Positions 42,225 to 49,621 of a stretch of DNA of 64,000 nt are shown here, in pieces (positions within the stretch are counted from its first letter, which is position 1; each line of letters opens with the position of its first letter). This DNA is from Methylacidimicrobium sp. B4 (GTDB lineage: Bacteria; Verrucomicrobiota; Verrucomicrobiia; Methylacidiphilales; Methylacidiphilaceae): assembly GCF_017310545.1 (NCBI RefSeq), contig NZ_CP066203.1, positions 124,001 to 188,000 of the forward strand, written 5' to 3'. Below the pieces are notes generated by a model, which had not been told where the DNA came from, did not search any database, and saw only the letters and a list, made by a program, of their open reading frames with translations. Both the position numbers and the translations under genes were made by a program.

Positions 42225-42941
42225 ATGCAAAGAGAGGTGCGTTCGCAGTGGATCGATCTGGAATCCGCCGCCGGAAGCCGGTTCTCGGGCTTCCTGGCCC
42301 AGCCCTCCGCTCCCGGATCCTATCCGGGAATCCTCGTCTTCATGGAGGCGTTCGGGGTCAACCGACATATTCGGAACGTCGCCGAGCGGCTCGCCCAGCA
42401 AGGCTATCGGGCACTCGCCCCGGATCTCTACCACCGGAGCGCCTCTCGCTGGGAGGGGAGCTATGAGGATTTCACGCAGGCGCTCACCCATCTTCGGCAG
42501 GTCACGATCGAGGGACTTTCGGCCGACGTGCAAGGCGGCTACCGGTGGCTGAGTACGGGCGGCTGCGGGGCGGCCGTGGGGGCGATTGGCTTCTGCTTCG
42601 GGGGCCGGGTGGCCTTCCTCGGCAGTACTGTGGCTCCGCTTCGCGCGGCCGCTTCCTTTTACGGCGGGGGGATCGCACCGGATCTCCTGGATCGAGCGAA
42701 GGAGGTGAAGGCCCCGCTTTTGCTCTTCTGGGGAGGACGCGACCAGCACGTGCCGCCGGAAAAGGCGCGGGCGACCGCCGACGCCCTTCGAGCTGCGGGC
42801 AAGGCGTTCATCGAGGTGAGCTTTTCGGAGGCGGGCCACGGCTTCTTTTGCGAGGAGCGGGGCAGCTATGACCCCGAAGCGGCGCGGATCTCCTGGCTGC
42901 TCGTCCAAGACTTTTTCGGCCACCACCTTCGGCCGAGCTAA
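42225..42941 (+). CDS. Dienelactone hydrolase family protein
   Basis: 238 residues from ATG 42225 (GCGAGGAGAA upstream). The alpha/beta hydrolase has Cys as nucleophile: AIGFCFGGRVA (Cys124), with Asp in FWGGRDQHVP and His in EAGHGFFCEERGSYD, the canonical Cys-Asp-His triad of dienelactone hydrolases. They hydrolyse lactones or other esters; the physiological substrate here is unclear. Convergent with the TonB receptor, overlapping its stop by four bases. Confidence 0.93.
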   Translation: MQREVRSQWIDLESAAGSRFSGFLAQPSAPGSYPGILVFMEAFGVNRHIRNVAERLAQQGYRALAPDLYHRSASRWEGSYEDFTQALTHLRQVTIEGLSADVQGGYRWLSTGGCGAAVGAIGFCFGGRVAFLGSTVAPLRAAASFYGGGIAPDLLDRAKEVKAPLLLFWGGRDQHVPPEKARATADALRAAGKAFIEVSFSEAGHGFFCEERGSYDPEAARISWLLVQDFFGHHLRPS

Positions 42942-45487
42942 AACGAAACCTGGATCATCGCCTGCATCCAGAAGGGCATCTGGAGGGCGGCATATTCGAG
43001 GTTGGCGGTGCGCGCGGGGGTAAAGCCGGGCGCTCCCGCAATCCAGTAGCGGTTGTCGGTGAAGTTGTAGAACCAGATCCGCGCCTCCCAGTGCCTGGCG
43101 GCGTAAAAGAGGCTCGCGTTCAAGGTATACCAGGCCGGCGCCCGGACGGCGTAGTCATAGGAGAGGAATTGGCCGCCCTGCTCGATCGCCCAAAAGGAGG
43201 CGCCGAAGCCCGAGTCGGTCTTGTAGGTGAGCATCAGGTTGCCATACTCCTTGGGAAAGCCGATGAAGGGATAGATGCCCGGGGCGAGGGAGACGATCTG
43301 GCTGACGGGCAGGCCGTACTGGGCGGCGACGTTTGCGGGGTAGGGGGTAAAGGTGGTCGGGCCGACGCCGTCGGTGTTCGTCCAGTTCTCATACCCTTGC
43401 ATGTAGTTGAATCCGAAGTTCGCCCAAAAATGGCGGTCCGGCCGGTAGCTCCCCTGGAGTTGCACCCCTTGGACATCGGCGGAAACGGTCGGGGTTGTGC
43501 CCCCCGGAAGGACGAAGGCGGGAATGAATCCAGACTGGGCGTAGGCGGAAAGCCCGAGAAAGAGCGTATCGCGGAGGAGAGAGAGCTTGAGGCCCGTCTC
43601 GTAGAGGGTCTGGGTCTGGTGGTAGTAGGTGCTGGTGAACTCCGGGGCGAAGGAGCCGAAGATCGATTGGGCGGTCGTCTGCCCGAAGTAGTAGGTCGCA
43701 TACCAGGAAAGCCAAGGGAAGATCCGGTAGGTGGGGCTGGCGGTGACCTGCGGCAGAAGGGCGCTTGTCGAGGTCGCGTCGTAGCTCGGGCCGATGAGCT
43801 GTGCCGGGGTGCCGGAGGGCGGTTGGGCGTTCACGAAGTAGGCATCGACACGGGCGCCGAGGAAGAGGCTCGCCTTTTCTCCGAAGTGGAGGATGTCCTG
43901 GACGAAGGGGGAGATCTCCCAGAAGTTGCATTGGGTCGAGGCGAAGTTGTCGACGTTGTAATACTCTCCCGGATAGCCCGGAATCGGAATGTCCGTAAGA
44001 AACGGATTGGCATAGGCGGGGCTGGTCGCGAGCGCATAGGGGACGATCGTGGAGGCGGAGGCGGGCGTAATCGGCTTGCTCATATCGGCCTGGTTGCTCG
44101 TCGGATGCCAGCTCCCCGAATACTCCTCGTCGCTCAGGAAGCGGAAGGCGAGGCCGCTATCGATGCTCTGCCAAAAGCTTTTGCTCTGCTTCTCCGGCTC
44201 CCAGCGGATTTCGAGCCGATCGGCGACATCGACCCCGTAGGGCAGGACGACCCAGGTCGGATCCGGGATCGGCTGGGCGGCATTCGCCTGGAAATACTCG
44301 AAGAGCGTGTTGTTGACGAGGGTGAGCTCGTCGCTCAGTCGGATCGTGGCGATCGCCTGGCTCACCGCGTAGAGCTGATGCGAGGAGTCGAGCGGGGTAT
44401 TGAAGAGGTTGGCCCGGCCACTGATCGGGACTTGGGGTCCCCAGTCGATCGCATATCCGGAGCCCGGCGGCGGCGTCCCTTGACCCGGATGGAACTGGCC
44501 GAAGGGCTGTGCCGCGGTAGCCGGCGGGGTGTAATACCCGATCCAGGAGCCGCTCTGGTAGAGTCCGGAGTCGATGAGGGACTGAGTCGGTCGGGTGACG
44601 CCGGCGTACGGCAGAAAGGAGTTCTGATTGAACTCCCCATTCCAGTCGACGCGAACCTCCTCCGTGGGCTTCCAAGAAAGGGCGAGATAGGCGCACTCCC
44701 GATTCAGGTAGGAGCCATCATAGTAGTTGTAGGGCGCGTAGCCCTCCTGCCCGAAGTAGTCGAGCCGGTAGGCGAGCTTCTTTTCCTTGCCGATCGGGCC
44801 GCCGATGTCGATGTTCCACAGGTTGGTGTCATACATGCCCAAGGTGTAGTAGGCGTTCCCCCGGAAGCGGTCGAAGAAGGGCTGCTTGGTTACCTCGTCG
44901 ACATATCCCCCAGCGAACTCCTGAGGCCCATAGACGATGCTCACCGGCCCCGTGAGGACATCGAGCGAATCGTCCGCGTTGAAGTTGAGCAGGGGGCCCC
45001 AGTTTCCGCCGCTGGAGAAGCCGACGAGCATCCCGTTCCGGAAGGCGGTCGCGGGAAGCCCGCGGACGACGGGCTCGCTCACGACGTTCCCGGTCGCTTG
45101 GGTCGGATTGACCGAGGGGCTGAAGGCGACCAGGTCGTTGACCTGCTGGGCCATCACCGTATCGAGCTCTTCCCGGGAGACGGGCAGGACATCGCGGGGG
45201 GTATCCAGGACCGACAAGTCGGGTCCGTAGACCGAGGTGACTTCCTGGGCGGGAGGAGTCGGCCGCTCCTCTTCGGCGGTCACAACGATCTCGGGAAGCT
45301 GAGGGGAAGCAGCGGCCGCCGGAGGTGCGCTCGGCTCCGCCTTGACGCTTGCAAGAGGGTCCGGCGGATCGGTCCTTTGGGATTCCTGGGCCCTCACAGA
45401 GGCCAGGAGGGCGAGGCAAGCGAAACAGGCGGCGGAGTACTTTCTAGCCCTCATTCCCGATCGACATGCCTGGGAAGGGTAGCTCAC
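42938..45487 (-). CDS. TonB-dependent outer-membrane receptor (coupled to a methyltransferase)
   Basis: 849 residues: signal peptide (YSAACFACLALLASVRAQES), an extended Pro/Ser/Ala linker, plug domain with a TonB-box-like LPEIVVTAEEE, DLSVLDTPRDVLPVSREELD, VVRGLPATAFRNGMLVG and GPVSIVYGPQEFAGGYVDEVTK, and a beta-barrel ending in MIQVSF. It starts within the stop of an upstream methyltransferase (ATGA), so the two are coupled. Cargo is unknown. The sequence is not close to the receptor at 24.7 kb beyond the shared fold. Confidence 0.92.
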   Translation of the reverse strand: MSYPSQACRSGMRARKYSAACFACLALLASVRAQESQRTDPPDPLASVKAEPSAPPAAAASPQLPEIVVTAEEERPTPPAQEVTSVYGPDLSVLDTPRDVLPVSREELDTVMAQQVNDLVAFSPSVNPTQATGNVVSEPVVRGLPATAFRNGMLVGFSSGGNWGPLLNFNADDSLDVLTGPVSIVYGPQEFAGGYVDEVTKQPFFDRFRGNAYYTLGMYDTNLWNIDIGGPIGKEKKLAYRLDYFGQEGYAPYNYYDGSYLNRECAYLALSWKPTEEVRVDWNGEFNQNSFLPYAGVTRPTQSLIDSGLYQSGSWIGYYTPPATAAQPFGQFHPGQGTPPPGSGYAIDWGPQVPISGRANLFNTPLDSSHQLYAVSQAIATIRLSDELTLVNNTLFEYFQANAAQPIPDPTWVVLPYGVDVADRLEIRWEPEKQSKSFWQSIDSGLAFRFLSDEEYSGSWHPTSNQADMSKPITPASASTIVPYALATSPAYANPFLTDIPIPGYPGEYYNVDNFASTQCNFWEISPFVQDILHFGEKASLFLGARVDAYFVNAQPPSGTPAQLIGPSYDATSTSALLPQVTASPTYRIFPWLSWYATYYFGQTTAQSIFGSFAPEFTSTYYHQTQTLYETGLKLSLLRDTLFLGLSAYAQSGFIPAFVLPGGTTPTVSADVQGVQLQGSYRPDRHFWANFGFNYMQGYENWTNTDGVGPTTFTPYPANVAAQYGLPVSQIVSLAPGIYPFIGFPKEYGNLMLTYKTDSGFGASFWAIEQGGQFLSYDYAVRAPAWYTLNASLFYAARHWEARIWFYNFTDNRYWIAGAPGFTPARTANLEYAALQMPFWMQAMIQVSF

Positions 45488-46479
45488 TGGCCCGCTTGGC
45501 CGCTAACGGGGGCTTGCCAATTTTTAGCGGGCGCTTGCCTTCTTTTCAGGTGATGGGAAGGGCCGCTTGTTGGTCGGCTCGCTTCCCGCTCCGCCACGAG
45601 CAGAAGGGTTTCGCCCGAAATCCGGATGTCGGAACCGGAGCGCGCCACCAGCCGTTCGATGATGCGGCGCTCGATCCGTTGCCGCTGCCCCGGCGAGACG
45701 CCCGAGAGAAACCTCCCCGCGCTGCTGGCCCGCCAAAAGTCGAGCAGCTCCGCGGGCGTCTTGGCTCGATCCTCCGACTCGACGACCTTCACCTTGAGAA
45801 CCCGGAATCCATTCTGCCGGAGCATTTCCTTGAGCTGCGCGAGGCCGAGGGGTGCTGTGGCGAGGAAGAGCGCGGGGGGAAGCGTTCCCAGAACCTCCTT
45901 TGCCGATCGCTCGATGATCTCGTCGATCTCCGAAGGTCGGCTGGTATCCTCGAAGCTGATCCCAAGCTTGCCCCCGGGCTTGAGGATCCGGCGGATCTCT
46001 CGGAGGGCTTGCCGCCGGTCATCGATCCAGTGGAGGACGTAATTGAGATAAACGACATCGAATGAGCCGGAAGGGAAAGCGGGAAGATCGCGAGAGCCGG
46101 CAACGGCAAAGGCGAGTCCCCTCCTCGCCCTCCGCTCGGCAAGCGCGATTCGGTAGGGGGAGGGATCGATCCCCAGGACCTTTCCTTTGGGTCCAGCGAT
46201 TCGGGAGGCCCAGGAGGCGATCTGTCCCGTACCGCATCCCAGGTCGAGGACCGAGCTTCCCGGGGAGATGCCGAGAAGGGAGAGGAGCTCCCTGCCGATC
46301 TCGTACTGAGCGGCGCTCTTCCGGTCGTACTCCTCGGCGAGGCGGGGGGAGTCGAAGAGCGCCGGCCTGCCGAACCCGATAGCGGTCGCGAGCAGGAGAA
46401 GGGAGAGGGAAATGGCTGGAGGAGAGTGGCACCATCGAAAGAGGAGATTCTCCGGATCGATCTTCCCCTGCGCACGCAT
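45484..46479 (-). CDS. SAM-dependent methyltransferase with N-terminal hydrophobic segment
   Basis: 331 residues. Motif I VLDLGCGTGQIASWASR and LGIDPSPYRIALAERRAR are those of the 41.4-kb methyltransferase. Ahead of the catalytic domain is a hydrophobic helix PPAISLSLLLLATAIGFGRP at residues ~20-40, which would anchor the enzyme to the inner membrane; SAM is cytosolic, so an inside-facing anchor is expected. The C-terminal region differs (basic tail PSHHLKRRQAPAKNW). The ATG/TGA overlap with the TonB-receptor gene implies they work on the same small molecule, perhaps a methylated metallophore or volatile metal(loid), but this is speculative. Confidence 0.88.
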   Translation of the reverse strand: MRAQGKIDPENLLFRWCHSPPAISLSLLLLATAIGFGRPALFDSPRLAEEYDRKSAAQYEIGRELLSLLGISPGSSVLDLGCGTGQIASWASRIAGPKGKVLGIDPSPYRIALAERRARRGLAFAVAGSRDLPAFPSGSFDVVYLNYVLHWIDDRRQALREIRRILKPGGKLGISFEDTSRPSEIDEIIERSAKEVLGTLPPALFLATAPLGLAQLKEMLRQNGFRVLKVKVVESEDRAKTPAELLDFWRASSAGRFLSGVSPGQRQRIERRIIERLVARSGSDIRISGETLLLVAEREASRPTSGPSHHLKRRQAPAKNWQAPVSGQAGQ

Positions 46480-46722: not shown

Positions 46723-47709
46723 ATGGGTCTCCGCGGAGAAGGCGAGCGTCCTTCTGCGGCCCCCGATCCCCCGGGGTCAGCCGATCCTCCGCATCGCTCT
46801 GGATGGGCCTGGGCCGGCTGGAGAGTTGTCATTGCTGCTCTTCTGTCCGTCGTCTGTGCTCTCCCCCTGTATGGGCAGGAGGCAAAGCCGCTGGCCACGA
46901 CCCCGCCAATCGCGGAAGCCTTTCCGCTGGTCCAGCAAGGTACGGAGGTCCATGCCGGCTGTCCCCTGGCGCTCAACGAATACGTGATTCTTTCGCCCCG
47001 GGAGGTTCTCCGCTGCTTTTACGTGAAAGCCCAGCGCCCAGCGGCAAGCGCGGAGAAAGGGGAATCCTCGGAGGGAGGCGCCCCTTCGGGCAGGCACCAT
47101 GGAGGAGGGATGGGTGGCATGGGCGGGATGGGAGGAGGCGGGATGGGCATGGGGGGAGGCGGCATGAGGGGCAGGCATGGCGGAATGAGCGGCGGGGGAG
47201 GCGGAACTGAGGGAAGGGGTGGCCAAGAGGCGAACCGGAAGGCTCTTTGGACTTCGGTCGATGCATTTCGGGAGGCGCTCGCGGGCCTGGACGGATCCGA
47301 CGTGCGGCTGGTCTTTGCCCCGCCTCCCGCGGCCCCCTCCGCCCAGACAGCCAAACCGGACGGGGCCGAACACCCCAAGACGGACTCCGCGCACGGACGA
47401 GTCCGAGACGAGCCCCTGGTTCTGCCATTGGGCCTGCTGCTGGGCGAGCTGGAAGCGGGACCGACCGTGCTCGCGGTCGAAGCCAGGAGCGCGGGAGCCG
47501 AAGCGGGTCTTCGCTCGGGGGACCGGATCGTCTCCCTCGACGGCCGGTCCTGCGCCAAGCGTCTGTCCGCCTTGTTGGATCTCTATCGCGAGGCAAAATC
47601 GCGGGGAGGTTCGTCGGTCTCCGTCGAGGCGGAGCGGGGAGAGGCGCGGCTTACGCTTGTCGTGCCTCTGCCGCCCCGGCTCGGGGGAAGCATCCTCGAC
47701 GCACCCTAG
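46723..47709 (+). CDS. Secreted PDZ-domain protein with Met/Gly/His-rich loop
   Basis: From ATG 46723 the product has 328 residues: signal segment (RVVIAALLSVVCALPLYGQE), a conserved N-domain (TTPPIAEAFPLVQQGTEVHA), a low-complexity loop at residues ~123-160 rich in Gly with seven Met and three His (RHHGGGMGGMGGMGGGG, then MGMGGGGMRGRHGGM), then FREALAGLDGSDVRLVF, and a C-terminal PDZ domain (GLRSGDRIVSLDGRSC). The Met/His pattern is like Cu(I)-binding segments of copper-handling proteins, plausible in a methanotroph but not proven. A paralogue without this loop follows at 47885. GTG 46681 is an alternative start. Confidence 0.72.
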   Translation: MGLRGEGERPSAAPDPPGSADPPHRSGWAWAGWRVVIAALLSVVCALPLYGQEAKPLATTPPIAEAFPLVQQGTEVHAGCPLALNEYVILSPREVLRCFYVKAQRPAASAEKGESSEGGAPSGRHHGGGMGGMGGMGGGGMGMGGGGMRGRHGGMSGGGGGTEGRGGQEANRKALWTSVDAFREALAGLDGSDVRLVFAPPPAAPSAQTAKPDGAEHPKTDSAHGRVRDEPLVLPLGLLLGELEAGPTVLAVEARSAGAEAGLRSGDRIVSLDGRSCAKRLSALLDLYREAKSRGGSSVSVEAERGEARLTLVVPLPPRLGGSILDAP

Positions 47710-47776
47710 CGCCTATGGGCGTCCGGGCGTCTGCGCGCGGGGCCGGGAGAAACGGGGGAGCCCCGCTTGCTCTTCA

Positions 47777-47803
47777 AATTCGCAGCGAATCGAATTATTT
47801 TTT
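47777..47803 (+). terminator. Rho-independent terminator after the first PDZ gene
   Basis: AATTCG (47777-47782) pairs with CGAATT (47791-47796) around loop CAGCGAAT and is followed by ATTTTTT. A short A/T-rich stem for a GC-rich genome, but the T run and position 70 bases after the stop fit a transcription terminator. Confidence 0.6.
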
Positions 47804-47884
47804 GGTTGTCGGGGAATTTCGGGGGCGGCAACGGTCGCACGACTCGGGACGGGAGCGGTGCTTCGCGGAGCGTATCCCTGAAGA

Positions 47885-48871
47885 GTGGGAGTGGGCGGTG
47901 TGAGGACTCTTGCGCAAAGAGGAGCGGATCGCACGGATCTGCGGAGAGAGCGGGCGAGGGCGGTGTCTCGCAGAGGCGGGTTGTTCCGACTCTGCTCCAG
48001 CCTGCTGCTCTTTTCTCTTGGCGCTCTCGCCACGGGCTCCCTTTCCGCCGAGGAGGCGGATGGGCTCAGGACCACCCCGCCGCTCTCCGTCGCCTTTCCG
48101 CTCGTGCAACAGGGAAGAGAGGTTCGCCTGACGTATCCCATAGCGATCAACGAACGGACGGTCGTTCGTCCAGACGCCCGGCTCCATTGCCTTTATGCGA
48201 AGCCGAAGATAGGGAGGGCTTCGGGTGAAGAAGGGGAGCTGGAAAGGGCTTTGCGCAGAAGGGTCATGCCGCTCGACGGCTTGGGGCTCGGTAGCATGCG
48301 CATCGGCACGACCGTTGAGACGCTGCCGGGAACGAACCCGAATGGGAGCCAGGACGGCAATCTGCGCCATGGGGTCGATGGTACCACGGTCTGGACCTCC
48401 ACGGACGCGTTTCGAAAGGCCCTGTCCGGCCTGGGCGGCTCCGATCTGCAACTGGTCTTTTCCCTGCCCGCGCCGATCGTCCAAGAGGTGGAACCGGCGG
48501 GGGAGGGGGAGGAGAAACCCGGCGCAAAGCCGCATTGGCGGCCAAGGCGGGTCTGGGATGAACCCTTGGTCCTTCCCCTCGGCCTGCTGCTGGCGCAGCG
48601 CAAAGGGGCCCCGACCGTGCTCGCGATCGAGGAAGGGAGCGAGGCCGAGCGAGCGGGCCTGCGCGTGAAGGACCGAATCGTCTCTCTGGACGGGAGGCGC
48701 TTTCCCAAGAGCCTCTCGGGCTTTCTCGCGCTCTATCGCCAGGAGAAAAGCCGTGGGCTCAAGGCGCTGCGGTTGGTCGTCGAGCGCGCCGGGCATCTCT
48801 CCCCGGTCTCCCTGACCGTGCCCCTTCCGCCCCGATCGGATGGGAGCATCGTTGACGCGCCGGGGGGGTAG
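47885..48871 (+). CDS. Secreted PDZ-domain protein (paralogue without Met-rich loop)
   Basis: 328 residues from a GTG at 47885; internal GTG/ATG starts are possible. Signal segment FRLCSSLLLFSLGALATGSL, then the shared N-domain (TTPPLSVAFPLVQQGREVRL), TSTDAFRKALSGLGGSDLQLVF, PLVLPLGLLL and the PDZ-like C-terminus (AGLRVKDRIVSLDGRRFPKS, LTVPLPPRSDGSIVDAP). It aligns across its length with the protein at 46723-47709 except for the central loop, which is replaced by a GTTVETLPGTNPNGSQ segment. Tandem duplication with a later gain or loss of the Met-rich loop is likely. Function unknown. Confidence 0.75.
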   Translation: MGVGGVRTLAQRGADRTDLRRERARAVSRRGGLFRLCSSLLLFSLGALATGSLSAEEADGLRTTPPLSVAFPLVQQGREVRLTYPIAINERTVVRPDARLHCLYAKPKIGRASGEEGELERALRRRVMPLDGLGLGSMRIGTTVETLPGTNPNGSQDGNLRHGVDGTTVWTSTDAFRKALSGLGGSDLQLVFSLPAPIVQEVEPAGEGEEKPGAKPHWRPRRVWDEPLVLPLGLLLAQRKGAPTVLAIEEGSEAERAGLRVKDRIVSLDGRRFPKSLSGFLALYRQEKSRGLKALRLVVERAGHLSPVSLTVPLPPRSDGSIVDAPGG

Positions 48872-48914: not shown

Positions 48915-49337
48915 TCAGCCGGAGCGGTTGGGGGTGCCGAGGAGATGAGTGCGCGGGGGAAGCATGAGGTCGTCGAAGCGTTGCGTAAACATCGCCGCCG
49001 CAAAAAAAGCGACCGCCCGTAAGGTGCTTTGCCCCGTATTGGCCAGGTCGTGGCGCACGTCGGTCGGGATGACGAATACGCTGCCGGGGCCAAGGGGATA
49101 GACGCCCGACTCCATGCGCAGCTCCCCGGAGCCCGAGAGGATGTATTGGGTCTCTTCGGTAGCATCCGTATGCCAGCCCAGCCGTCCCCCGGGCTCGATC
49201 TCGTACACGATCGTCGAGGACTGGGTGGCGCCGCGGCCGCCGCACGATGCGAACGCGCCGGCCCAACGCACAGAGGCATCGTTCTCGCCGCGAACGGCGA
49301 TGCGTTCCAACTCCGCACTCTCGACGACAGGGTTCAT
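48915..49337 (-). CDS. Cupin-domain protein
   Basis: 140 residues from ATG 49337 (AAGGAGAGTTCC upstream). Single cupin barrel: VYEIEPGGRLGWHTDATEETQYILSGSGELRM is motif 1 (His, Glu) and FVIPTDVRHDLANTG motif 2 (His). It resembles small cupins that protect or sense organic ligands. No transporter or enzyme partner is adjacent. The open frame continues upstream to 49463 without a better start. Convergent with the PDZ gene pair. Confidence 0.85.
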   Translation of the reverse strand: MNPVVESAELERIAVRGENDASVRWAGAFASCGGRGATQSSTIVYEIEPGGRLGWHTDATEETQYILSGSGELRMESGVYPLGPGSVFVIPTDVRHDLANTGQSTLRAVAFFAAAMFTQRFDDLMLPPRTHLLGTPNRSG

Positions 49338-49621
49338 GGAACTCTCCTTGGTTTCCCGGCAGGCCGGATTGGATCCGACACTAGCGGTTTCGCATGGCCG
49401 GAACAAGGGACCTACGTGTTTTTTTTGTTGCGTACGAACGCATTCGGGTCTAGCCGGCCTCATCGGGACCAGGCTCTCCCTCCTCGCAGCCTGTCTCCCC
49501 GCAGCTTCCCGGGGGAAACCGGCGCCCCTCCGCGCATCCTTGCCTGGGTAGAGGGCAACTGCCCGAAAAATGAATGCGTTCCTAGCGAAATCTTGCTAAG
49601 ACCATTGCCCTGCAGGCTTGG

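Follow-up and report, generated by a model that had tools for sequence, protein, structure and literature searches.

The tandem gene pair P0001 (46723..47709, + strand) and P0002 (47885..48871, + strand) encodes two putatively exported PDZ proteins, the first of which carries a loop composed largely of glycine, methionine and histidine. This Gly/Met loop protein is a real, lineage-specific feature of the window (the whole stretch of DNA analysed, 64,000 nt). The best single explanation of the loop is that it forms a Cu(I)-binding arm on an exported PDZ scaffold, a reading to which we give a probability of roughly 40%.

Both reading frames are open at these coordinates and encode 328 residues apiece, the products are 46% identical across query residues 48-326, and a PDZ domain is present in each, so that the tandem 328-residue paralogues described in the first-pass annotation are borne out; for P0001, whose orthologues were found in three further genomes of the genus, the length depends on the start codon chosen. 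That start is uncertain, because conservation does not extend to the ATG at 46723 (ATC in the orthologue of strain LP2A) and because the TTG that lies right before the hydrophobic core in three of the four P0001 orthologues is TGG here. Secretion was judged by eye from the signal-peptide-like N-termini of the two proteins, which are therefore predicted to be exported; the likely signal peptide of P0001 has a hydrophobic core, WRVVIAALLSVVCALPLYG (46819..46875, + strand), that is aligned in all orthologues.

The PDZ domain of P0001 (47416..47673, + strand) matches PF17820 and PF13180 above the cut-off, and that of P0002 (48566..48829, + strand) matches PF17820. The PDZ_6 scores of 39.4 bits (E=5e-10) and 29.6 bits (E=6e-7), respectively, both pass the cut-off of 27 bits, and profile comparison identified the PDZ domain of RseP as the closest solved relative. 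In their C-terminal parts the two proteins thus resemble established PDZ proteins (Pfam PDZ_6 / PDZ_2), from which they differ in lacking a protease domain and in having an N-terminal domain that matches no named family and was found in the order only. Searches for the protease domains of HtrA/Deg, Ctp/S41 and RseP in P0001 and P0002 yielded matches to the PDZ regions alone, far under the family cut-offs, and domain searches for a chaperone domain yielded none. The N-terminal domain, delimited in the P0001 alignment, consists of one block (46897..47028, + strand) that includes Cys80, a residue conserved among the P0001 orthologues and matched by Tyr in P0002, and a second block (47245..47316, + strand) with the pattern WTS..AFREAL..L.GSDVRLVF. 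No Pfam or NCBIfam family matched this domain, and a profile of the N-terminal region found matches in 7 of 240 genomes of the phylum, every one in Methylacidiphilales. A signal peptide, the N-domain with its two blocks split by a variable linker, and a PDZ domain make up the architecture of the family; the alignment reveals the same two blocks, intervening linker and PDZ domain in P0001 and P0002, which both belong to this unnamed Methylacidiphilales family. AlphaFold2 models of five sequences had a mean pLDDT of 33. Phylogenetic analysis resolved the P0001 and P0002 sequences as two sister clades inside Methylacidimicrobium, and the pair probably arose by duplication in this lineage. A third paralogue in the same genome (G000:C1:946899-947675) has no Met loop whatever, and loopless relatives are found in Methylacidiphilum and in other families across the order; copper is therefore not the role of the family as a whole.

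The loop itself, delimited by composition and tandem-repeat detection, comprises residues 123-161 of P0001 (47089..47205, + strand) and contains units such as GGGATGGGC. Its 39 residues include 25 Gly, 7 Met, 3 His and 3 Arg, which confirms the seven Met and three His reported earlier for a stretch of about 38 residues. The remaining 289 residues contain a single Met, the start, and thus all internal Met of the protein reside in the loop. A search at the DNA level for the core motif GMGGMG gave two occurrences in the window and none in 100 shuffles. A tandem repeat was detected at the DNA level, so that the loop is a coding minisatellite, and the alignment places it where loopless relatives of the wider family have a hypervariable linker. 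Among the four P0001 orthologues the distance from PSGR to (L/V/I)WTS is 52, 75, 64 and 56 residues, with 7, 14, 12 and 9 Met, respectively, and in LP2A a longer unit is repeated in near-perfect form. The repeat, its length variation and its site would be expected of a neutral coding minisatellite in a length-tolerant linker, in which Met is a by-product of slippage that copies a unit of the GGGATGGGC type. It also lends partial force to the objection, raised together with the original copper proposal, that the loop might be a variable Gly-rich linker, inasmuch as it does lie at a variable linker and does vary in length by tandem repetition. Nevertheless, neutrality appears unlikely in view of the codons used. 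The four loops contain 42 ATG codons and no codon for Ile, Leu or Val, that is, none of the replacements ATA, ATC, ATT, CTG, TTG or GTG, and in no orthologue has an ATG decayed to a neighbouring hydrophobic codon. The Gly codons, in contrast, are a mixture of GGA, GGC, GGG and GGT in which species differ synonymously at as many as 12 of 21 sites, and therefore the repeat copies cannot all be fresh. The absence of Ile, Leu and Val codons while the third positions of Gly vary argues for retention of Met in the P0001 loop, as opposed to its production purely by slippage, although this test is weakened by repeat copying. Clustered Met with MxM/MxxM spacing, a sequence trait of Met-rich Cu(I) binders, is also kept in the orthologues. 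A lack of Met enrichment in homologues had been named as grounds against the copper proposal; in the P0001 group the enrichment is present, with 7-14 Met per loop and no drift to Ile, Leu or Val.

The situation differs for P0002, in which alignment and residue counts identified a short counterpart of the loop, RRRVMPLDGLGLGSMRIG (48254..48307, + strand), with Leu or Ile where relatives have Met. In this genome the whole protein has two Met only, but in three relatives the P0002 orthologue does have a Gly-rich loop, which contains 4-6 Met; the notion that only the first paralogue bears the loop is therefore correct within the window and fails for these relatives. Across the P0002 loops, Met, Leu, Ile and Val interchange at matching residues, which counts against copper and fits a merely hydrophobic role. 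Such a role is the essence of an alternative in which metal is irrelevant and P0001 is a periplasmic chaperone-like adaptor: a flexible, mildly hydrophobic and polyproline-II-like Gly-Met arm, similar to the GGM tail of GroEL, would touch unfolded or membrane-associated clients, and the PDZ domain would bind client C-termini. Periplasmic protein quality control often involves PDZ domains, which favours this idea, as does the relationship to the PDZ domain of RseP. The Gly/Met-only tails of GroEL have been described as polyproline-II helices that bind clients (PMC12571646), and the P0001 loop shares with them the Gly-Met repeats and probably the conformation, but it is internal and part of an export-type protein without a chaperonin fold. 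Against the chaperone-like adaptor it can be held that the P0001 loops use Met only and never Leu, Ile or Val, that P0001 has neither a protease nor a chaperone domain, that the host GroEL is devoid of a GGM tail, and that the GGM arrays of this genome include those of a PmoD homologue and of a His/Met-rich protein (see below). A loop borrowed from the tail of the host GroEL was rejected, as that protein ends in ...APPAPGMGEEY. Both copper and a chaperone-like arm are plausible, because published work exists on Met-Cu(I) chemistry as well as on the GroEL tails; we regard the chaperone-like arm as somewhat unlikely.

Cu(I) binding by the loop is plausible on chemical grounds. It has been reported that Cu(I) binding is driven by Met abundance (PMC11840665) and that motifs with Met as the only ligand are those that retain Cu(I) at pH 3.5 (PMC9117721), and the growth range of Methylacidimicrobium is pH 0.5-5.5 (PMC8498564). 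In the proposed mechanism, the linker that joins the two parts of the N-domain would have turned into a Gly-Met minisatellite in P0001, and the resulting chain would probably be disordered or polyproline-II-like. Met residues at MxM, MxxM and MxxxxM spacing could then wrap Cu(I), or Ag(I), via two to three thioethers, and this mode of holding Cu(I) would persist in a periplasm acidic enough to protonate His. Such a loop would buffer Cu(I) with low affinity and variable capacity, and the PDZ domain might dock it onto a partner protein. A parallel is offered by the periplasmic Met/His-rich metal binders of the SilE/PcoE type: like P0001, these are exported chains rich in Met and His, with Met-x-x-Met spacing. 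P0001 differs from them in that its loop has 3 His only and forms one segment of a scaffold protein. To our knowledge, SilE/PcoE-type proteins are not PDZ proteins. In SilE, Ag(I) is bound by HxxM sites (PMC10080550). A literature search retrieved no paper linking PDZ domains to Met-rich copper proteins, or to copper in methanotrophs.

GGM arrays are rare, and a pattern search found them in four proteins of this genome: P0001, a Gly/His/Phe-rich protein, a small secreted His/Met-rich protein and a PmoD homologue. The latter (L126:5526-6194; G000:C1:794525-795193) is encoded near pmoCAB, about 6 kb from pmoA, matches PDB entry 6cpd (E=8e-7) and has its array between its two conserved cysteines; it is adjoined by a second PmoD-like gene (L126:4516-5163, - strand) and by a gene for a likely multicopper oxidase (L126:6233-7966). 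In characterised PmoD, a CuA-forming protein of methanotrophs, the corresponding N-terminal region provides the copper ligands (PMC6189053). P0001 shares the GGM array with the PmoD homologue of this genome, but it is encoded far from pmo and belongs to a different family, and a P0001/P0002 profile run against the PDB, which holds PmoD (6cpd), retrieved PDZ chains only and no similarity to PmoD. The small His/Met-rich protein (G000:C1:1649153-1649590; L084, L129), which carries (MGG)n, is present in 12 of 13 genomes of the family and has no Pfam family; its Methylacidiphilum copies have HGMM and CC motifs (e.g. HEGHKMGGMDHGMMGGMGHGMMGG and HEGHKMGGMDHGMMGGMGHGMMGGKGGMACCG), and it is a stronger candidate for copper binding than P0001. 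In relatives the GGM pattern also occurs in a Met-rich predicted outer-membrane protein (L133:1778-3229 and L130:2339-3160, both - strand; MMHHGMGGMG, with Met abundant in the barrel-like part), one copy of which had no match in a Pfam search, and in Slp-family-type lipoproteins with C-terminal Gly-Met-Pro repeat tails (MYGPMGG; L132:1506-2549, - strand, and L134:1635-2324). The Slp-type lipoprotein and the Gly/His/Phe-rich protein have no known link to copper; GGM arrays are thus common to known or likely copper proteins, yet not exclusive to them. The arrays of the PmoD homologue and the His/Met-rich protein lend circumstantial support to Cu(I) rather than a plain linker, the more so at pH 1-5, a range in which Met still binds Cu(I).

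The host is a methanotroph, as had been presumed: its genome (2.37 Mb, single contig) has two copies of pmoA, and its closest named relative found, LP2A, is a verrucomicrobial methanotroph that has been placed in Methylacidimicrobium (PMC8498564). A contig scan for relatives found LP2A and the isolate STB_62 only. If the loop supplied copper to pMMO, P0001 should be present wherever the genus has pmo, but it occurs in four of the seven genomes of the genus and P0002 in six (this genome included), in contrast to pmoA in all seven. P0001 is lacking in G032 (single contig) and in G048, which has neither paralogue, although both genomes are near-complete and contain pmoA; in G042 (230 contigs) it was not detected and a contig reaches the methyltransferase gene without it, although assembly breaks may account for this case. 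Together with the distance of about 630 kb between the gene pair and pmoA, the absences led to the rejection of a direct pMMO link. Spread by plasmids was also rejected, as no plasmid match was found.

The surrounding gene block is wholly or partly conserved in the genus and has the order TonB receptor, methyltransferase, (P0001), P0002, cupin, P0003. The TonB-dependent receptor (42938..45487, - strand) has its best NCBIfam matches among siderophore receptors, the nearest being FoxA/FhuA, well below the cut-off; it (L034:4547-7060, - strand) is 96% identical to that of LP2A, a value that exceeds those of most neighbours. The class I SAM methyltransferase (45484..46479, - strand; Methyltransf_11, E=1e-25) is also present in G039, G045, G042 and G032. 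The cupin protein is encoded at 48915..49463 (- strand; Cupin_2, E=1e-14), and P0003 (49622..50701, + strand) is an export-type protein with two internal repeats that fell into no known family in a domain search. No copper genes were found in this conserved neighbourhood, which is thus unlike a copper-homeostasis operon; this and the absence of P0001 from G032 and G048 count against copper. The idea that a PDZ protein with a copper loop is a new periplasmic copper handler therefore emerges in weakened form: it gains from the retention of Met and from the GGM arrays of the PmoD and His/Met-rich proteins, and it loses from the neighbourhood, the distance to pmoA and the patchy presence.

The GGM array common to P0001 and the PmoD homologue makes the copper idea testable. 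If the loop binds Cu(I), P0001 would be a PDZ-docked, pH-insensitive copper buffer with a capacity tunable by repeat slippage. A wider generalization, which we consider quite unlikely, is that Gly-Met minisatellites serve the genus as tunable, acid-proof arms that hold Cu(I) on unrelated exported proteins (the PDZ scaffold, PmoD and the His/Met-rich protein), with the repeat number setting the capacity. A Cu(I)-binding arm would bear on copper handling for pMMO in verrucomicrobial methanotrophs at pH 1-5.
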